Of a DNA stretch of 36,322 bases, positions 3,705 to 32,898 are shown one piece after another (position 1 is the first letter of the stretch; every line of letters starts with the position of its first letter). This DNA is from Streptomyces solincola (lineage in GTDB: Bacteria > Actinomycetota > Actinomycetes > Streptomycetales > Streptomycetaceae). Both the position numbers and the translations under genes were made by a program. Location: assembly GCF_002982015.1 (NCBI RefSeq), contig NZ_PVLV01000287.1, positions 1-36,322 on the forward strand. The letters run 5' to 3'. Under the pieces are notes generated by a model. It was given only the letters and a program-made list of their open reading frames with translations, was not told the DNA's origin and did no database searches.

Positions 3705-6377
3705 TCACTTGCGCATGACCTCCGGCTCGTGGCGGCGCAGCAGGCGCGCCACGACCAGTCCGCACAGCACGCCGAGGGCGAGCAGGATGCCCATGTCGAA
3801 CACCCACACCCCCAGCTCGTGGTCCCACAGCGGGTCGGTGTCGGTGGGGTCGTCCTGGTTGGGGAAGAGGACGTTGAGCTGCGCGGTGGCCCCGGCGGCG
3901 GCGACCGCCCAGCGGGACGGCATCAGGTAGGACAGCTCGTTGACGCCGGTCTGGCCGTGCAGGAAGAACAGGCAGCCGGTGAAGACGACCTGGATGATCG
4001 CGAACATCACCAGCAGCGGCATGGTCTTCTCGGCGGTCTTCACCAGCGAGGAGATGATCAGGCCGAACATCATGGCGGTGAAGCCCAGGCCCATGATCGG
4101 CAGGGTCAGCTCCAGCAGGACCAGCGAGGAGCCGAAGACCAGGCCCTCCTCCGGGAGGTCCCGCATCCCGAAGCCGATCCCGCCGATGATCGCGCCCTGG
4201 AGCACGGTGATCAGTCCGAGGACGATCACCTTGGACATCAGATAGGCCGAACGCGACAGGCCGGTGGCCCGCTCCCGCTCGTAGATGACCCGTTCCTTGA
4301 TCAGTTCTCGTACGGAGTTGGCCGCGCCGGCGAAGCAGGCGCCCACCGCCAGGATCAGCAGGATCACCGCCGCGCTGCCGTTGGGGCCGCGCGTCCCCGG
4401 GCGCAGCCCGAAGTCGGAGCTGACCAGGGTGGAGACCACGCCGAGCACGGCCGGCAGGATCACCATCAGGGCCATGAAGCCCTTGTCGGAGGCGATCACC
4501 GACAGATAGCGCCGGATCAGCGTGAGGAGCTGCGCGCCCCAGCCCTGCGGCTTGGGCTGGCGGACCGGCTGGACCGGCGCGGCCTGGGCCGGCTGAGGGG
4601 CCTGGGCGTCGAGGTCGGCGGCGTACATCTGGTAGTGCTGCGAGCCCTTCCAGCGGCCCGCCCAGTCGTAGTCGCGGTAGTTCTCGAACGCCGAGAAGAC
4701 GTCCGCCCAGGACTCGTAGCCGAAGAAGTTGAGCGCCTCCTCCGGCGGGCCGAAGTAGGCCACCGCGCCGCCGGGCGCCATCACCAGCAGCTTGTCGCAG
4801 AGCGCCAGCTCGGCGACGGAGTGGGTGACCACCAGGACCGTGCGGCCGTCGTCGGCGAGGCCGCGCAGCAACTGCATGACGTCGCGGTCCATGCCCGGGT
4901 CCAGACCCGAGGTCGGCTCGTCCAGGAAGATCAGCGACGGCTTGGTCAGCAGCTCCAGCGCGACCGAGACGCGCTTGCGCTGGCCGCCGGAGAGCGCGGT
5001 GATCTTCTTGTCCTTGTGGATGTCGAGCTTCAGCTCGCGCAGCACCTCGTCGATCCGCGCCTCGCGCTCCTGCGCGGTGGTGTCGGCGGGGAAGCGCAGC
5101 TTGGCCGCGTACTTCAGCGCCGTGCGGACCGTCAGCTCCTTGTGCAGGATGTCGTCCTGCGGCACCAGGCCGATGCGCTGGCGCAGCTCGGCGAACTGCT
5201 TGTAGAGGTTGCGGTTGTCGTAGAGGACGTCGCCCTGGTTGGCCGGGCGGTAGCCGGTGAGCGCCTTCAGCAGGGTGGACTTGCCCGAGCCGGACGGGCC
5301 GATGACCGCGACCAGGGACTTCTCCGGGACGCCGAAGGAGACGTCCCGCAGGATCTGCTTGCCGCCGTCGACCGTGACGGTCAGGTGGCGGGCGGAGAAG
5401 GACACCTCGCCGGTGTCGACGAACTCCTCCAGCCGGTCGCCGACCAGCCGGAACGTCGAGTGGCCGACGCCGACGATGTCGCCCGCGCCGATCAGCGCGG
5501 TGCCGGACTTGGCGAGCGGCTGGCCGTTGACGTAGGTGCCGTTGTGCGAGCCGAGGTCGCGGATCTCGAAGCGGCCGTCGGGGGTGGCGTGGAACTCGGC
5601 GTGGTGCCGCGAGACCTGGAGGTCGGAGACGACCAGCTCGTTCTCCAGGGCACGGCCGATCCGCATCACCCGGCCGAGGGCCACCTGGTGGAACGTGGTG
5701 GGGCTGCGATCGCCGTACGCGGGGCCCGGTGCGCCGCCGCCCGGGGACCCGGGTCCGTGCCCCGGGCCCTGCGGACCACCGGATCCGCCCGGGCCGGGCT
5801 GCTCGCCGTACGGCGCGGCCTGCGCCGGAGGCTGCTGGTGCGGGACCCGGCCCTGCGGCGCGGCGGGCTGCTGCCACTGGCCCGACTGCCGGTCGGACGG
5901 GGCGGGCGGCTGCGCCGGTACGGGCTGGGCGGCCGGCGCCGCGGCGGGGGCGGCCTGGGCCGGGGCGGCGGACTGCGCCGCGCCCTGCTGCCAGGCGCCC
6001 TGCGCGCCGTGGGCGGGCGGCTGCGGCTGGGGGGCGGCGGTCCCGGCGTAGGCCCCGGTGTCCGCCGCGGTCGCGCCCGCGGCCACGGTGAGCCGGGGGC
6101 CGTCGGTGGCGTTGCCCAGGTGCACGGGCTCGCCCGGCGCGAGGTCGGCTTGCTGGACCCGCAGGCCGCGCGCGTAGGTGCCGTTGGTGGAGCCGTGGTC
6201 GGTGACGACCCAACTCCGTCCGTTCCAGGTGAGGGTGGCGTGCCGCCACGAGACCCGGGCGTCGTCGATCACCACGTCGCCCTGCGGGTCGCGGCCCAGG
6301 GTGTACGACCTGGACGGATCGAGGGCCCAGGTCCTTCCGTTCAGTTCCAGTACGAGTTCCGGCACACCTTGCCCCAC
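3705..6377 (-). CDS. Double-FHA ABC transporter (ATPase-permease fusion)
   Basis: This protein of about 890 residues combines phosphopeptide recognition with export. FHA domain 1 (about 10-98) has GRDPQGDVVIDDARVSWRHA and STNGTY. A long Pro/Gln/Ala/Gly linker follows. FHA domain 2 (about 230-310) has RIGRALENELVVSDLQVSRHHA and SHNGTYVNG. The ABCG-type ATPase (about 327-560) shows Walker A GPSGSGKST, signature LSGGQRKRVS, Walker B LIFLDEPTSGLD and the H-loop VTHS. An ABC-2 permease with about six membrane helices fills the C-terminus. FHA domains bind phospho-threonine, so control by Ser/Thr kinases is likely; the substrate is unknown. I place the start at GTG 6377 because GGGGGA lies at good distance. 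ATG 6428 lacks a ribosome site, and GTG 6365 is another option. Confidence 0.9.
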   Translation of the reverse strand: MGQGVPELVLELNGRTWALDPSRSYTLGRDPQGDVVIDDARVSWRHATLTWNGRSWVVTDHGSTNGTYARGLRVQQADLAPGEPVHLGNATDGPRLTVAAGATAADTGAYAGTAAPQPQPPAHGAQGAWQQGAAQSAAPAQAAPAAAPAAQPVPAQPPAPSDRQSGQWQQPAAPQGRVPHQQPPAQAAPYGEQPGPGGSGGPQGPGHGPGSPGGGAPGPAYGDRSPTTFHQVALGRVMRIGRALENELVVSDLQVSRHHAEFHATPDGRFEIRDLGSHNGTYVNGQPLAKSGTALIGAGDIVGVGHSTFRLVGDRLEEFVDTGEVSFSARHLTVTVDGGKQILRDVSFGVPEKSLVAVIGPSGSGKSTLLKALTGYRPANQGDVLYDNRNLYKQFAELRQRIGLVPQDDILHKELTVRTALKYAAKLRFPADTTAQEREARIDEVLRELKLDIHKDKKITALSGGQRKRVSVALELLTKPSLIFLDEPTSGLDPGMDRDVMQLLRGLADDGRTVLVVTHSVAELALCDKLLVMAPGGAVAYFGPPEEALNFFGYESWADVFSAFENYRDYDWAGRWKGSQHYQMYAADLDAQAPQPAQAAPVQPVRQPKPQGWGAQLLTLIRRYLSVIASDKGFMALMVILPAVLGVVSTLVSSDFGLRPGTRGPNGSAAVILLILAVGACFAGAANSVRELIKERVIYERERATGLSRSAYLMSKVIVLGLITVLQGAIIGGIGFGMRDLPEEGLVFGSSLVLLELTLPIMGLGFTAMMFGLIISSLVKTAEKTMPLLVMFAIIQVVFTGCLFFLHGQTGVNELSYLMPSRWAVAAAGATAQLNVLFPNQDDPTDTDPLWDHELGVWVFDMGILLALGVLCGLVVARLLRRHEPEVMRK

Positions 6378-6459
6378 TAGTCGTCCCCCGAGTGCCTCCT
6401 CTCCCGGGAGGCTGGGGATGGTGAACATCCGGGGGAACTATTTCAGGCCGGGTCCCCTC

Positions 6460-6493
6460 TTCGAAAGTCGGGCCGCCCCTTCGAATGCCGGGC
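6460..6493. promoter_or_regulatory. Direct repeat of TTCGAA sites in a divergent promoter region
   Basis: TTCGAAAGTCGGGC starts at 6460 and TTCGAATGCCGGGC at 6480, so two near-identical 14-mers are spaced exactly 20 bp (about two helical turns) apart. They lie between the divergent FHA-ABC and serB genes. This is a candidate operator; no regulator is known. Confidence 0.35.
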
Positions 6494-6553
6494 TGTCCGG
6501 GAAGCGGGACGCGGACTCGCCCGGGCGCGGGGGGCGGATACGGTGGGAGGACC

Positions 6554-7795
6554 ATGAGCGCTTCGCAGACCCCCGAGGTCACCGCCGACATCCCCACCCT
6601 TCTCGTCAAGATCTTCGGGAAGGACCGGCCCGGCATCACCGCCGGCCTCTTCGACACCCTGGCCGCCTACGCCCTCGACGTGGTCGACATCGAGCAGGTC
6701 GTCACGCGGGGCCGCATCGTGCTCTGCGCGCTGGTCACGGCCCCGGCCGTGAGCACCGAGGGCGAGCTGCGGGCCACCGTGCACAGTTGGGCCGAGTCGC
6801 TGAAGCTCCAGGCCGAGATCATCTCCGGCACCGGCGACAACCGGCCCCGGGGCGTGGGCCGGTCGCATGTGACGGTCCTCGGCAACCCGCTGACGTCGGA
6901 GGAGACCGCGGCCATAGCGTCCGCGATCACCTCCACCGGCGGCAACATCGACCGGATCTTCCGGCTCGCGAAGTACCCGGTGACCGCGGTGGAGTTCGCG
7001 GTGTCGGGGGCGGAGCCGGCTGCGCTGCGGACGGTGCTCGCCACCCAGGCGCACGAGATCGGGGTGGACGTGGCCGTGGTGGCGGCCGGGCTGCACCGCC
7101 GGGCGCAGCGGCTGGTGGTGATGGACGTGGACTCGACCCTCATCCAGGACGAGGTGATCGAGCTGTTCGCGGCGCACGCGGGCTGTGAGGCGGAGGTCGC
7201 GGAGGTGACCGCGCGGGCGATGCGCGGGGAGCTGGACTTCGAGCAGTCGCTGCACGCGCGGGTGGCGCTGCTGGCGGGCCTGGACGCGTCGGTGGTGGAG
7301 AAGGTGCGGGCCGAGGTCCGGCTCACGCCGGGCGCGCGGACGCTGATCCGCACCCTGAAGCGGCTGGGCTACCAGGTGGGGGTGGTCTCCGGTGGGTTCA
7401 CCCAGGTCACCGACGATCTGAAGGGGCGGCTGGGGCTGGACTTCGCCTCGGCCAACACGCTGGAGATCGTGGACGGGAAGCTGACCGGGCGGGTGGTCGG
7501 CGAGGTGGTGGACCGGGCGGGCAAGGCCCGGCTGCTGCGGAGGTTCGCCGCCGAGGCGGGGGTGCCGCTGGCGCAGACCGTGGCGATCGGGGACGGCGCC
7601 AACGACCTGGACATGCTCAACACGGCGGGCCTGGGGGTGGCGTTCAACGCCAAGCCGGTGGTCCGCCGCGCCGCGCACACCGCGGTCAACGTGCCGTTCC
7701 TCGACACCGTCCTGTACCTGCTGGGCGTCACCCGCGAGGAGGTCGAGGCCGCGGACGAGGAGACCGGGTACGTCGAGGACGAGGACGGGGAGTAG
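6554..7795 (+). CDS. serB: Phosphoserine phosphatase SerB
   Basis: This 413-residue cytosolic enzyme carries out the last step of L-serine synthesis: O-phosphoserine to serine plus phosphate. The N-terminal half (about 8-170) has two ACT-like regulatory domains, beginning LLVKIFGKDRPGITAGLFDTL; the family uses these for amino-acid control. The HAD phosphatase domain starts with motif I VVMDVDSTL (nucleophile D191, general acid D193). It continues with VGVVSGGFT (motif II Ser) and a final GDGANDLDML (motif IV). ATG 6554 follows GGGAGG. A TACGGT hexamer at 6539-6544 is so close that the transcript could have a very short leader. The length matches the ACT-containing actinobacterial SerB type. 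Confidence 0.95.
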   Translation: MSASQTPEVTADIPTLLVKIFGKDRPGITAGLFDTLAAYALDVVDIEQVVTRGRIVLCALVTAPAVSTEGELRATVHSWAESLKLQAEIISGTGDNRPRGVGRSHVTVLGNPLTSEETAAIASAITSTGGNIDRIFRLAKYPVTAVEFAVSGAEPAALRTVLATQAHEIGVDVAVVAAGLHRRAQRLVVMDVDSTLIQDEVIELFAAHAGCEAEVAEVTARAMRGELDFEQSLHARVALLAGLDASVVEKVRAEVRLTPGARTLIRTLKRLGYQVGVVSGGFTQVTDDLKGRLGLDFASANTLEIVDGKLTGRVVGEVVDRAGKARLLRRFAAEAGVPLAQTVAIGDGANDLDMLNTAGLGVAFNAKPVVRRAAHTAVNVPFLDTVLYLLGVTREEVEAADEETGYVEDEDGE

Positions 7796-7798
7796 GAC

Positions 7799-8050
7799 CC
7801 GGGGCGAGGAGTAGGACCCGGCGGGACGGAAGCAAGGCCCGGGGGGACGGAAGCAAGGCCCGGGGGACGGAAGCAAGGCCCGGCGGCGGCATGGCGCGGG
7901 CCGGGGGCGACCCGGGAGCGGCCTGGGGGCGGCCCGGGGGCGACCCGGCCGCCTTGGGAGCGGCCCAAGGCGCCTTGGGAGCGGCCCGGCGGCGGCATGG
8001 CGCGAGCCGGGGGCGACCCGGGGCGCCTTGCTAGCGGCCCGGCGCCTTGC
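7799..8050. repeat. Patch of short GC-rich repeats between serB and the SixA-like gene
   Basis: The 371-bp gap 7796-8166 is built largely of degenerate repeats. (a) A 20-bp unit, GGGACGGAAGCAAGGCCCGG, occurs three times in tandem (7823-7842, 7844-7863, 7864-7883). (b) A 38-bp unit occurs at 7879-7916 and 7985-8022 with one mismatch (G7899/A8005). (c) The core GCCTTGGGAGCGGCCC occurs at 7951-7966 and 7972-7987, with a decayed copy near 8024-8040. (d) GAGTAGGACCCGG is doubled around the serB stop. No gene is supported here. The patch probably grew by slippage or unequal recombination. Confidence 0.85.
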
Positions 8051-29628: not shown

Positions 29629-30192
29629 TCAGGTGACGCGGCGGCCGGGGTGGCGTACGGCGCGCAGCCGGGCCTCGGCGGGCAGGGCGGCGAGGCCGGC
29701 CGACTCGCGGGCGTGCCGCACCGCGCCGCCGCCGAGCCGGGCCAGGGTCTCGCGGGGCGCGGCGTAGGGCTCCAGGAGCAGGGCGAGGTGGGCCGCCGGG
29801 GCGGTGCGGCGGCCGGTCAGCCGGACCCGGGCCCGGGACACCCCGTCCAGCGCCTCGGCCTCGGCGGCCATCGCACCCTCCAGGGCCCGGCCGCGCAGCA
29901 CCGCTGCGTCGCCGTCGCCGGTGTCGAGCAGCACCTCGGCCAGCCGCGGCCGCCGCAGCTGCGCGAAGAGCCAGATCAGGGCGAGCACCAACAGGGCCGC
30001 GGGCACCGCGACGGCCGCCGCCCAGGGGATCCGCTCGCGGGTCCGGTCGGTCAGCAGCACCGCATCGGGGTCGTGCCAGGGCCACCAGGACGGCACGTCC
30101 AGCCCGATGACGACGGCGAGCACCGCTCCGCCGAGGCAGAGCAGCACCAGCCCGGCCAGGCCCAGCAGCGCCCGGTTCACTCCTCGTAGCAT
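29629..30192 (-). CDS. amaP: AmaP-like alkaline-shock membrane anchor protein
   Basis: This 187-residue protein has two membrane helices (about 8-28 and 57-79) and a C-terminal soluble domain of about 100 residues. The pattern (EGAMAAEAEALDGVSRARVRLTG, HLALLLEPYA) resembles an Asp23-like fold. In Staphylococcus AmaP holds Asp23 at the membrane; that name is applied here on architecture and neighbourhood. ATG 30192 has AGGAG at good distance. It is the last gene of the five-gene leftward cluster, 30 bp after DUF6286. Confidence 0.8.
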   Translation of the reverse strand: MLRGVNRALLGLAGLVLLCLGGAVLAVVIGLDVPSWWPWHDPDAVLLTDRTRERIPWAAAVAVPAALLVLALIWLFAQLRRPRLAEVLLDTGDGDAAVLRGRALEGAMAAEAEALDGVSRARVRLTGRRTAPAAHLALLLEPYAAPRETLARLGGGAVRHARESAGLAALPAEARLRAVRHPGRRVT

Positions 30193-30222: not shown

Positions 30223-30873
30223 TCAGCCCTTGCGGGGCGGGCGGACGACGTGCACCGAGACGGCCGGGGGGCGGGCCAGGCCCAGCTCCCGTACCCCGGC
30301 GGCCATCGCGGCCTCCACGTCGGCCCGGACCTCGGGCACTTCGCGGAAGTGGGCGACGGCGCGGACCGCGGCCTTGCCGCGCCCGGCGCGCACCCGGGCC
30401 GAGGCCACCCCGGCGACGCCCACGGCCCGGTCGTGCAGCACCCGTTCGACCGCGTCCCGGCCGAGTCCGGCACGCAGTCCGTGCGGGCCGGGCCGCATGG
30501 TCAGCACCGACCGCAGCCCCGGGGTGAGGGCGAGGGCCAGCAGCCACAGTCCGAGGGCCACGGCGACGCCCGCGCCGGCGACCGTCCACACGTCGTCCAG
30601 GGACCGGGTCGCCAGGTCCCCGGTGAGCACCTTGCGCCAGCTCATGCCGGGCCGCCCGGCGCGCACCGACACCAGGTCGTACAGGAGCAGTCCGGCCGCG
30701 CCGAGCACGACCAGGGCGAGCAGGGCGGCGGGCGCCCGCCGGACCGACCAGAAGCGGCCGGCGCGCCGGGCGCCGGACCGCCCGCGGGGCTCCGCGGGGT
30801 CGGCGCCGGTCGCCGCGTCCGGCGGGCCGTGGGCCGGCTCCGGCTCGGCCGGCCCGGGCTCGGCTCGGTTCAT
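30223..30873 (-). CDS. DUF6286 membrane protein of the Asp23 cluster
   Basis: This 216-residue protein has a long Pro/Ala/Gly N-terminus, two membrane helices (about 50-70 and 97-118) and a C-terminal domain (about 130-216). That domain follows the Asp23-like layout: DAVERVLHDRAVGVAGVASARVR, KAAVRAVAHF, EVRADVEAAMAAGVRELG, VSVHVV. Its plan is the same as AmaP: double anchor plus alkaline-shock-like domain. The ATG at 30873 overlaps the upstream stop (ATGA). It is probably a second membrane anchor of the complex; the name DUF6286 is from memory. Confidence 0.8.
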   Translation of the reverse strand: MNRAEPGPAEPEPAHGPPDAATGADPAEPRGRSGARRAGRFWSVRRAPAALLALVVLGAAGLLLYDLVSVRAGRPGMSWRKVLTGDLATRSLDDVWTVAGAGVAVALGLWLLALALTPGLRSVLTMRPGPHGLRAGLGRDAVERVLHDRAVGVAGVASARVRAGRGKAAVRAVAHFREVPEVRADVEAAMAAGVRELGLARPPAVSVHVVRPPRKG

Positions 30874-31328
30874 CGGACCCTCCCGCGGTCCTCGTCGGAC
30901 GTGTACGGCGAGTGCAGCTTCTCCACGTGCACCGCGACCTCCCGGACGGCGAGCCCGGCCAGCGTCTCCACCCGCCGGGTCACCTGGCGGCGGACCGCGC
31001 CGCACTGGGCGGCCAGGTCCGCGGGGTAGCCGAGCTCCAGGCTGACGTGCACCCGGGCCGTGTCCCGGTGGACGACGACCGTCGTCCGGGGCGGCTTGGC
31101 CGCGGCCGGCAGGACGCCCGGGGCGGGGCCGGGAGGGGCCTCGCCCAGTGCCTCCCGGGCGGCCCGGGCGGCGATCTTCGCCACCACCCGGTCGGCGACG
31201 CTGGTCGCGCCGCGCTCGGCCGCCCGCACCCGCCGGGCCGCCGGCCGTCCGCCGGGAGCGGTGTCCGCGGCCTCGTCCGGGCCGCCGTGCCCGTGCTCGG
31301 CGTCGGCCGCCGTCGCCCCCGCCATCAC
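30870..31328 (-). CDS. Asp23/Gls24-family protein (second copy)
   Basis: This protein of about 152 residues has a low-complexity N-terminus (1-42) and an alkaline-shock domain: TSVADRVVAKIAARAAREALGE, TTVVVHRDTARVHVSLELGYPADLAAQ, VRRQVTRRVETLAGLAVREVAVHVEKL. The beta-strands V-x-V and the helix with conserved Arg are typical. The start is GTG 31328 or ATG 31325, directly after the previous stop; both are plausible. Asp23/Gls24 proteins are abundant cytosolic proteins that gather at the membrane and are induced by cell-wall or alkaline stress in Firmicutes. Confidence 0.88.
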   Translation of the reverse strand: MMAGATAADAEHGHGGPDEAADTAPGGRPAARRVRAAERGATSVADRVVAKIAARAAREALGEAPPGPAPGVLPAAAKPPRTTVVVHRDTARVHVSLELGYPADLAAQCGAVRRQVTRRVETLAGLAVREVAVHVEKLHSPYTSDEDRGRVR

Positions 31329-31329
31329 G

Positions 31330-31521
31330 TCACCGCCGCCGGTCGTCGCGGTCGCGGCTCCGGAAGAACTCGCCGGGCTCCAGGTCGCCCTCCAGGAACC
31401 GGCCCGCCACGAAACCGATCGCGCCCAGGGCGGCGACCAGCACGAACGCGCCGAATCCGCCGAAGTAGCCGGCGAAGCCCAGCGCCATACCGGCCAGCAG
31501 GCCGACCACCGCCATGTTCAT
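31330..31521 (-). CDS. Small DUF2273-like membrane protein of the Asp23 cluster
   Basis: This 63-residue protein has two tightly packed hydrophobic helices (about 3-20 and 27-45; VVGLLAGMALGFAGYFGGFG, FVLVAALGAIGFVAGRFLEG) and a charged tail (FFRSRDRDDRRR). A tiny two-helix protein next to Asp23 and AmaP is the usual DUF2273 partner. ATG 31521 follows AGAGGAA by six bases; a longer frame to 31539 lacks a ribosome site. It lies between the two Asp23 genes. Confidence 0.82.
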   Translation of the reverse strand: MNMAVVGLLAGMALGFAGYFGGFGAFVLVAALGAIGFVAGRFLEGDLEPGEFFRSRDRDDRRR

Positions 31522-31558: not shown

Positions 31559-32053
31559 TCACCGGATCCGGGTCTCCTGCTCGTCCTCGTCCTCGTCCTC
31601 CTCGTCCGGCAGCTTCACGTCGCTGACGGCGATGTTGACCTCGACGACCTCCAGGCCCGTCATCCGCTCCACGGCGGAGACGACGTTCTCCCTGACGGCC
31701 CCGGCGACGTCCGCGATGGAGACGCCGTAGTCGATCACGATCTCCAGGTCGAGCGCGGTCTGCACCTCGCCGACCTCGGCCTTGACGCCCCGGGACACGT
31801 TGGACTTGCCACTGCCGGGGACCCGGTCGCGCACGGCGCCGAAGGTGCGGGAGAGCCCGCCGCCCATGGCGTGCACGCCCACGACGTCGCGGGCGGCCAT
31901 TCCGGCGATCTTCTCCACCACGCCGTCCGCGATGGTGGTGCGGCCCCGGGACGCGGGATCGCCGCTCCTGCGTGTGCCGGACCCGGCCGGCTCCTTGACC
32001 CGTGAGGCCCTGTCGGCCTGGGCCGCCTGTGCGGACTGCGACGTGTCGGTCAT
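31559..32053 (-). CDS. Asp23/Gls24-family protein (first copy)
   Basis: This 164-residue protein is the first gene of the leftward cluster. After a polar N-terminus (1-40) comes the alkaline-shock domain: TTIADGVVEKIAGMAARDVVGVHAMGGG, VQTALDLEIVIDYGVSIADVAGAVRENVVSAVERMTGLEVVEVNIAVSDVKL. It ends with an acidic tail DEEDEDEDEQETRIR, encoded by a short GTCCTC-type repeat (about 31574-31608) prone to length change. The start at ATG 32053 has a distant GGAAGGGA. It is presumably the main soluble component of the assembly. Confidence 0.9.
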   Translation of the reverse strand: MTDTSQSAQAAQADRASRVKEPAGSGTRRSGDPASRGRTTIADGVVEKIAGMAARDVVGVHAMGGGLSRTFGAVRDRVPGSGKSNVSRGVKAEVGEVQTALDLEIVIDYGVSIADVAGAVRENVVSAVERMTGLEVVEVNIAVSDVKLPDEEDEDEDEQETRIR

Positions 32054-32172
32054 CAGCGTCCATCCCTTCCACGTCTCACCGGGAGCCTCTCCCGGCGGAG
32101 CGGTGTGACCCTTTTCGCCCACATTACGGCTGGTTCGCGTGTTGCGCGCCGGGGATGCGGCAGGGTGGAGGA

Positions 32173-32898
32173 ATGAGCACCGGAGAGGGCAGGGCCGATC
32201 AGGGCGGCGGGACGGGGCACACCTGGGCGGCGGCGGTGCGCGGTGCGCTGGCGCCGGGCCTGCTGCTGCCGCTCGGCGGCCCGGACGACGGCGTCTGGAT
32301 CACCGAGCGGGCCGCCGCCGGCGTGCTGGGCGGCGCGATGGAGCGGGCGGCGCCGGACGCCGTGCCGGGCCGGGTGCGGGTGCGGTCCGCCGCCGGCGGG
32401 GCGGCCGGGGCGGCCTCCGGGACGCCCGCGCCGCCCGGGGCACTGCCGGCCGGACCGCTGCGGGTGGAGGCGGAGTTCGCCGCCCTGGCGGGGTCGGTGC
32501 TGCCCGAGGTGGCGGACCGGCTGCGCGCCGCGGTGCTGGCCGCGTCCGACGAACTGCTGGGCCTGCGGGTGGCGGCGGTGGACCTGCGGGTGACCGCGCT
32601 GCTGGACGCCCTGCCGGAGCGCCCGCCCGGCGACGACGGCCCGCCGGCGGCGGACACGCCGCCGGGCAGCCCCCCGGAACCGGGCTCACCCGAGGCGGTG
32701 GCCGCCGCCGTGCCCGGGGTGGCGCGGCTGACCGGCGCACTGGGCCGTCCGGCGCACCGGACCGCCGGCCGGCTGCGGGTGGAGCTGGCCACCGCCCCCG
32801 GCCGGCGGGCCCGGGACGTGGCCGCCGCGGCCCGCGCGGCGCTCGCCGCGGACGACCCGCACACCGCGGTGACCGTGGTGGTCACCGAGACGGGCTGA
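32173..32898 (+). CDS. Tandem degenerate Asp23-like protein (previously of obscure name)
   Basis: This 241-residue, Ala/Gly/Pro-rich cytosolic protein is read away from the Asp23 operon. Its middle (RVEAEFAALAGSVLPEVADRLRAAVLAASDELLGLRVAAVDLRV) lines up with the Asp23 strand-helix-strand region of the neighbour (ADVAGAVRENVVSAVERMTGLEVVEVNIAV). After a Pro linker a second copy follows (GVARLTG, RLRVELATAPGRRARDVAAAARAALAADDPHTAVTVVV). So it is probably two weak alkaline-shock domains in one chain. Homologues are, as I recall, labelled nucleopolyhedrovirus P10 family, which has no support here. GGAGG is only one base from ATG 32173, so the start is not certain. Confidence 0.7.
   Translation: MSTGEGRADQGGGTGHTWAAAVRGALAPGLLLPLGGPDDGVWITERAAAGVLGGAMERAAPDAVPGRVRVRSAAGGAAGAASGTPAPPGALPAGPLRVEAEFAALAGSVLPEVADRLRAAVLAASDELLGLRVAAVDLRVTALLDALPERPPGDDGPPAADTPPGSPPEPGSPEAVAAAVPGVARLTGALGRPAHRTAGRLRVELATAPGRRARDVAAAARAALAADDPHTAVTVVVTETG

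Follow-up and report, generated by a model that had tools for sequence, protein, structure and literature searches.

The gene at 32173–32898 on the plus strand of the stretch of Streptomyces solincola DNA analysed here (36,322 nucleotides, hereafter the window) encodes two Asp23-like domains in a single chain of 241 amino acids plus stop, and it faces an envelope-stress operon for Asp23 and AmaP-like proteins. It is probably a fusion of an Asp23-type anti-sigma-like protein with its partner, now lacking both sigma factor and zinc finger, that would act as an adaptor or modulator on the Asp23 scaffold. What is new here is the origin of the fused gene, of which no description was found in the open-licence literature searched. 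That Asp23-family proteins are predicted anti-sigma factors, in groups ECF286 and ECF292, was already known from the available text of a review (PMC8999054). A conserved Streptomyces gene without a Pfam or NCBIfam family thereby obtains its first placement, and a protein whose tie to a sigma gene, present in sister loci, is missing in Streptomyces offers a testable route to what the Asp23 scaffold senses.

The facing operon lies on the minus strand. Its first gene encodes Asp23 (31559–32053; PF03780, 3.3e-29) and is followed by genes for a small membrane protein that is weakly DUF2273-like (31330–31521; E 0.24, below the cut-off), a second Asp23 protein (30870–31328; PF03780, 2.4e-08), a DUF6286 protein with hydrophobic stretches visible by eye (30223–30873; 1.7e-28) and an AmaP-like membrane anchor (29629–30192; NF033218, 61.2 bits against a cut-off of 55). 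All five genes are present in 78 of the 80 named loci, which places the focal gene in a neighbourhood with an AmaP-type anchor. The initial annotation had described the focal gene as a divergent partner that shares a 119-bp promoter region with the operon. The layout and the distance hold, the minus-strand Asp23 gene beginning at 32053 and 119 bp separating the two start codons. The divergent layout, whose conservation had been suggested as a check, is kept in 30/30 and 80/80 loci, which makes 110 loci with the window included and not 110 independent species, a few being one genome fetched twice. The smaller set consists of the best matches and the larger of the best 80 of 447 confirmed stretches, so both are biased toward similarity, and some genomes occur in both. 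Relatives of the focal protein share 40–71% identity with it (sets of 28 and 78). Given these relatives and the divergent layout in all 110 loci, the open reading frame is not a chance one.

Among 61 related genomes, 33 were matched by the focal protein, and 32 of these matches come from a genus-level set of 37 genomes, its own included. All 32 same-genus carriers also have Asp23 (PF03780). Five genus members lack the gene; Asp23 is missing from two of them and present in three (G012, G018 and G035). The genome of the window, a draft of 747 contigs with 99.77% completeness, has the fused gene in single copy, and no match was found in plasmid records. Some Streptomyces harbor a second, distinct fused-type locus (L028, L057, L071 and L076, a 100/100 group in the Asp23 tree described below), and S. 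coeruleorubidus has two copies, L066 and L076.

The AlphaFold2 model of the focal protein, built from 29 rows (mean pLDDT 87.4, pTM 0.82), consists of two alpha-beta units with a Pro-rich linker between them. The first Asp23-like domain comprises residues 41–147 (32293–32613, plus strand), including a Pro-rich loop at residues 73–95, and is delimited by the predicted fold, the structural match described below, profiles and split genes. The linker, residues 148–172 (32614–32688, plus strand), lies where two genes found apart in sister loci have been joined. The second Asp23-like domain, residues 173–240 (32689–32892, plus strand), is delimited by the predicted fold, profiles and split C-half genes. 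Both halves were found in 109/109 fused proteins by HMMs built on the same proteins, with L026, truncated at a contig end, omitted from the count. The predicted elements of the first half, with E for strand and H for helix, are E41-44, H45-59, E63-72, E96-105, H110-129 and E133-144, and those of the second half are H173-178, E183-186, E194-197, E200-207, H213-227 and E232-240. In the model of the Asp23 neighbour (38 rows, pLDDT 77.6, pTM 0.64) they are H43-55, E60-63, E90-94, E98-108, H113-132 and E135-147. The elements of the modelled second half thus follow the order seen in Asp23, and those of the first half nearly so, with one long strand in place of two short ones. The tandem repeat seen by the initial annotation is clear in the predicted structure. 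The sequence pattern on which it was based, a strand, a helix and a GLxV-type strand given twice, is present in the first half (LRVEAEF, helix, GLRVAAVDLRVTALL) and incomplete in the second, where LRVELAT and a DVA helix are followed by AVTVVVTE without GLxV. Direct comparison of the two halves by profile gave a weak score of 15%.

The best solved match of both models is the cytosolic (C-terminal) domain of the CDF transporter MamM. Focal residues 44–144 superimpose on MamM 213–292 with a Z of 10.5 and an rmsd of 1.8, and residues 42–148 of the Asp23 neighbour on the same MamM residues with a Z of 12.1 and an rmsd of 1.6. This common match argues, indirectly and for the N-half only, that the modelled N-half and Asp23 are structurally equivalent. 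Best E-values in Foldseek were modest (8.8e-3 for the focal model and 1.7e-3 for the Asp23 neighbour), with no match for either at E 0.001. No chain named Asp23 was among the 50 matches listed per fold search, which is uninformative. A PDB sequence search with the Asp23 neighbour (P0002) returned no Asp23 structure (seven chains at chance level), and one with A1 returned nothing. The Asp23 neighbour at 31559–32053 itself resembles CDF cytosolic domains (MamM Z 12.1), and, judging by the models, the Asp23 and CDF cytosolic-domain folds may have a common origin.

Direct matching of the focal protein (P0001) to family models fails. Neither Pfam (hmmscan) nor NCBIfam assigned it a family. The intact protein and each of its halves were without an Asp23 match in hmmscan at E up to 10, and the curated Pfam cut-off for Asp23 (28 bits) was not reached. 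Neither half thus gives a direct match to PF03780, the family against which a check had been proposed. Matches among the fused relatives are all weak. With 29 proteins, Pfam gave DUF6286 for five (best 0.0018), ZT_dimer for three and Asp23 for one; with 79 proteins, it gave DUF6286 for six (best 0.0011), ZT_dimer for five and Asp23 for four, the best Asp23 E-value in these scans being 0.012. The commonest family in the larger scan was the phage family Tail_completion_gp17 (8/79, best 0.017). The initial annotation had called a viral-P10 label used for relatives misleading. Use of the label was not traced in the open-licence literature searched, and nothing found here supports the name. No P10 match was listed in scans with Pfam (29 and 79 members) or NCBIfam (79 members).

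Profile evidence favors kinship with Asp23. When an HMM was built from 30 actinobacterial Asp23 domains, all from outside the fused family, 44/109 fused proteins matched it at an i-E of 0.1 or better, compared with 0/109 reversed and 0/545 shuffled sequences. Of the matched domains, 32 lie within the first 160 amino acids and 13 begin beyond residue 150. The HMM made from orthologs of the second Asp23 gene gave no separation at i-E 1 (3/109 fused, 2/109 reversed and 2/545 shuffled). The initial annotation had proposed profile-profile comparison with Asp23, and its outcome depended on the profiles. Profiles of same-genus orthologs of the two Asp23 neighbours reached a probability of at most 13% with either half (E 0.002 to 0.06) and are too shallow to decide; the same-genus DUF6286 profile matched the N-half as well as Asp23 did (0.0047). 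With profiles enlarged by diverse Asp23 sequences and split genes, hhalign matched the N-half to Asp23 at 80% (E 1.3e-5, 105 columns) and the C-half at 57% (E 1e-4). It matched the N-half to DUF6286 at E 8e-4, and the halves matched the AmaP profile at E 0.02 (N) and 0.08 (C).

The evidence is clearest for genes in which the two halves are separate. Split N-half genes alone matched Pfam Asp23 at E 0.1 or better in 25/28 cases (best 2e-07) and DUF6286 in 23/28 (best 2.2e-06). Split C-half genes alone matched Asp23 in 19/28 (best 1.3e-08), and each non-Asp23 family was matched by only one of them. For both halves, Asp23 was thus matched by more split genes than any other family. The 28 genes are domains cut whole from 40 loci, with the two-piece N-half genes of L196, L221, L223 and L225 omitted. 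C-half genes of L187 and L201 exceed the Pfam cut-off (34.1 and 30.5 bits). A gene of L197 (3649–4074) reaches 45.6 bits for Asp23 and is a C-half by position only, the C-half HMM not listing it. The genes of seven split loci are tied to the fused family by N-half HMM matches of 3e-20 to 2e-28 (Z = 200). Homology to Asp23 rests on these intermediates, since direct Pfam matching of the focal protein fails. With the predicted fold, the profiles and the Pfam recognition of split sister genes, the description of the focal protein as a tandem, degenerate Asp23-like protein is upheld. Judged by these scores, DUF6286 may be no more distant from the N-half than Asp23 is. DUF6286, the family of the protein encoded at 30223–30873 of the window, matches the N-half family, and this protein may have another Asp23-like fold in the operon.

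The split genes were found because a profile search showed N-half and C-half matches side by side in different frames in some genomes. Sister loci were fetched as 20 and later another 20, by family and class profile search, from partial matches or distant places. In the first set, L187–L191, L196, L201, L202, L204 and L205 have the halves as separate adjacent genes near an Asp23 operon. L190 exemplifies the order: a sigma factor of 239 amino acids (Sigma70_r2 4.3e-19, r4_2 3.9e-14), an N-half gene of 223 and a C-half gene of 116, with overlapping ends and facing Asp23. Homologs of the L190 sigma factor occur in 17/20 loci of the first set, all but L192, L194 and L200, and in 20/20 of the second. 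The second set contains a zinc segment in 17/20 loci (blastp) and a C-half gene in 16/20. Its sigma and Asp23 genes are divergent in 14/20 (in L213 with 2.8 kb between them) and on one strand in L215, L216, L219 and L224, and two loci have no Asp23 in the stretch fetched. L187/L189, L204/L205 and L225/L228 seem to be near-duplicates, so that counts among the sister loci, those of the promoter pattern below included, overstate independence. L215 has a sigma gene, a zinc-finger N-half, a C-half, Asp23, a second Asp23, DUF6286 and an AmaP-like gene on one strand at 3812–7999, an operon-like arrangement. L193, L194, L195, L198, L199 and L203, which come from actinobacteria of other families, carry a C-half-like gene immediately after the first Asp23 gene. 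The link to ECF sigma loci was missed by the initial annotation.

The L190 N-half protein starts with ...CGR...H..CPHC..., followed by the helix AERVMDVVRLELRPGRTLPLG and then the Asp23-like domain. An H..CxxC motif marks ZAS domains. It precedes the domain in 28/31 N-half genes over threshold, the exceptions being L196, L206 and L200. With the sigma gene first and then an N-half gene that usually starts with an H..CxxC segment, the sister arrangement is the layout of a sigma/anti-sigma pair. CxxC occurs in the first 80 amino acids of 0/79 fused proteins, so the H..CxxC signature of ZAS domains is absent from that region. The fused loci are also nearly devoid of the sigma gene. A homolog of the L190 sigma factor was found in 1/110 (L028, 33% identity), the searched flanks measuring 1.5 kb in the initial 30 loci and, for the most part, 4 kb in the other 80. 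The window has no sigma match better than E 0.28 and thus no adjacent cognate sigma gene. Its genome has generic ECF matches only (best 7e-25), and four genomes with a split locus, one being the query's own, have the sigma factor at 1e-63 or better. Two genomes, G161 and G263, contain both locus types.

The segment between the zinc finger and the Asp23-like domain of the sister protein, a helix and a turn, has a counterpart in the fused family, WTxAVRxxLGLGRLLPLG. In the focal protein it spans residues 15–35 (32215–32277, plus strand) and ends in ...GLLLPLG, the family consensus being W..AVR..LGLGRLLPLG. Conservation is 2.97 bits per column for residues 15–26 and 3.50 for residues 27–40, compared with 0.74 for the tail and 2.9–3.1 for the domains. 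The helix and turn are therefore conserved as much as the domains, with a helix placement that is not confident (pLDDT 50 for residues 11–20 and 58 for residues 21–30). Hydrophobic moments of 0.12–0.50 in four sequences, calculated as a check for an amphipathic membrane helix, are not decisive. No hydrophobic stretches were seen by eye in the focal protein.

A tree of 41 Asp23 sequences (22 chosen fused-family rows, 10 sigma-locus rows of the first set and nine other actinobacterial rows) bears on the direction of change. The 22 fused-family rows form a single group (94/98) and join eight of the 10 sigma-locus rows, with L187 and L189 outside (starred 97/94). The nine other rows lie outside, and seven of them also adjoin a sigma gene. 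The tree has a midpoint root and three long outgroup rows, and the branches of the eight sigma-locus rows are mostly weak. On its simplest reading, the sigma-bearing state is older, and the loss of sigma gene and zinc finger and the fusion occurred in the Streptomyces lineage, which would make the fused, sigma-less state of the window derived. L200 (3148–4043) is placed with the fused-family rows of this tree, where its label is therefore loose. It has no sigma gene, no zinc motif and halves in different frames, and could represent either an intermediate before fusion or a frameshift.

The shared intergenic region (32054–32172) contains a conserved core of fixed spacing. The core CGGCAG..TGG at the gene start was found in 76/110 loci; two of the other 34, L009 and L011, differ by one base. 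In 76/76 core-bearing loci the distance from the end of CAGNNT to the ATG is exactly 6 nt; in the window the hexamer is CAGGGT (32161–32166, plus strand), a putative -10 of the focal gene. CACnnTA on the plus strand, TAnnGTG on the other, is present in 74/76, in 71 with the same spacing, and TAATGT (32121–32126, minus strand; TAnnGT in relatives) is the putative -10 of the Asp23 operon. The -10 of S. coelicolor promoters is TANNNT, and 21% of primary start sites yield leaderless mRNAs, according to the available text of PMC4895711. With a putative -10 only 6 nt before its ATG, the focal gene may be leaderless; this -10 departs from TANNNT in its first base, C rather than T. An in-frame ATG 18 nt upstream (MRQGGGM...) was rejected as a general start, since the core-bearing relatives have ATG in 53/76, ATA in 22 and GGA in one.

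In sister loci, an ECF-like signature of the TGACG-N16-GTCC(AA) type precedes Asp23 (e.g., L190:5201–5372). Because the relaxed pattern TGA[CTG][GA]-N15-17-GTC[CG] had been derived from nine sister regions, its 9/9 matches there in the Asp23 direction are circular. Among 14 new regions, it precedes Asp23 in 8/14 (mean of 300 shuffles 1.6, maximum 5) and the strict pattern in 4/14 (mean 0.32, maximum 3). Among the 14 new regions, that of L213 is 2.8 kb long and thus separates genes that are not adjacent. A self-regulated ECF promoter in sister loci was considered and rejected, as matches in the sigma direction in 4/9 of the first regions (shuffle mean 0.96, maximum 3) were not replicated in the new ones (2/14, mean 1.8). 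The fused-family loci, with about 170 nt scanned compared with about 320–480 in the nine sister regions, gave strict 0/110 and relaxed 5/110 in the Asp23 direction and strict 1/110 and relaxed 3/110 in the other, and outgroup regions gave relaxed 2/5 and strict 0/5. The signature was not found in the window. These patterns suggest, short of showing it, that the operon may have passed from ECF sigma control to a housekeeping-type promoter.

It seems likely, then, that the gene goes back to a neighbouring pair, one gene for an anti-sigma-like protein of Asp23 type and one for a small Asp23-like partner, which in other actinobacterial loci accompanies an ECF sigma gene close to Asp23 operons. In the focal lineage this pair would have been fused, with loss of both the sigma gene and the zinc-finger segment. 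The fused protein would have retained the helix that once joined the zinc finger to the Asp23-like domain. It is predicted to be soluble, with both domains docking on the membrane-held Asp23/AmaP scaffold of the facing operon, where it would serve as an adaptor or assembly modulator, its conserved N-terminal helix presenting a contact surface. The original sigma factor is probably no longer sequestered by the fused protein. The initial annotation had suggested that the protein could act as a pseudo-dimer, capping or regulating the scaffold; its observation is confirmed and its interpretation is partly supported. A pseudo-dimer cap that enters the end of a filament and so keeps Asp23 polymers from growing, or shortens them, is an unlikely though realistic reading. 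It would accord with two Asp23-like domains per chain, with the pTM of 0.82, which is compatible with packed domains, with the conserved facing position, and with S. aureus Asp23, which is attached through AmaP and forms filaments in vitro (available text of PMC6954212). The model supplies no interface evidence for such a cap, however, and some genomes have Asp23 without the focal gene.

It is distinctly improbable that the protein is still a working anti-sigma factor that has become zinc-free, with the helix at residues 15–35 binding an ECF sigma factor encoded elsewhere or, in genomes with both, competing with the sister-locus protein for the scaffold. Conservation of helix and turn at the level of the domains despite the uncertain placement of the helix, the two genomes with both locus types and the anti-sigma prediction for the Asp23 family (available text of PMC8999054) are consistent with this role. 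However, 79/79 fused proteins lack CxxC in their first 80 amino acids, 109/110 loci lack a sigma homolog in the fetched flanks, the sister sigma factor is absent from the genome of the window, and the strict ECF-like signature is absent from the Asp23 direction in all 110. It is very improbable indeed that the gene is an unrelated neighbour whose product converged with Asp23 on a common alpha-beta fold. The direct sequence scores are weak and the fold recurs in the C-terminal domains of CDF transporters, but the split relatives match Pfam Asp23 (25/28 and 19/28), which lowers a probability that was already very small; they are tied to the fused family by the N-half HMM at 3e-20 to 2e-28, and the Asp23 HMM separates real from reversed and shuffled sequences. 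A further reading, rather unlikely to be right as a whole, makes the Asp23 membrane scaffold a gauge of stress that Asp23-like proteins read. A sister anti-sigma factor would dock on the scaffold and free its ECF sigma factor when the scaffold changes, and the freed sigma factor would drive the Asp23 operon. The Streptomyces fused protein would be a reader uncoupled from sigma, with a helix now serving another partner or competition with the sigma-linked version.

Several known systems invite comparison. As with the anti-sigma factors of ECF286 and ECF292, the sister loci encode a soluble-looking Asp23-like protein near a sigma gene, and the focal protein has the homologous domain and helix; we infer that the sister loci belong to these groups. 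That the anti-sigma factors bind and inhibit an ECF sigma factor is a prediction there too (PMC8999054). Unlike them, the window gene has no zinc-finger segment and no sigma gene and is fused to a second Asp23-like protein. DUF6286 (PF19803) has profile matches to the N-half family (5/29 fused and 23/28 split), whereas the DUF6286 protein itself lies inside the operon and has hydrophobic stretches that the focal protein lacks. The cytosolic domains of CDF proteins (MamM, MamB, YiiP and ZnT) have the fold predicted for the focal protein (Z about 10.6, with an rmsd of about 2 over 75–80 residues); the likeness is one of fold only, as the focal protein has no transporter part and shows no sign of a common function. 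A further comparison is with Asp23/Gls24 proteins (PF03780; S. aureus Asp23, B. subtilis YqhY and YloU), whose molecular function is called still unclear in the available text of PMC6954212. In S. venezuelae, an Asp23 gene is downregulated after ethanol shock (available text of PMC9769785). The focal protein shares the fold and order of elements of Asp23 in the models, and its gene is likewise a neighbour of Asp23 and AmaP-like genes. In contrast to Asp23/Gls24 proteins, it has two domains per chain, scores below the Pfam level and faces the operon rather than lying inside it.
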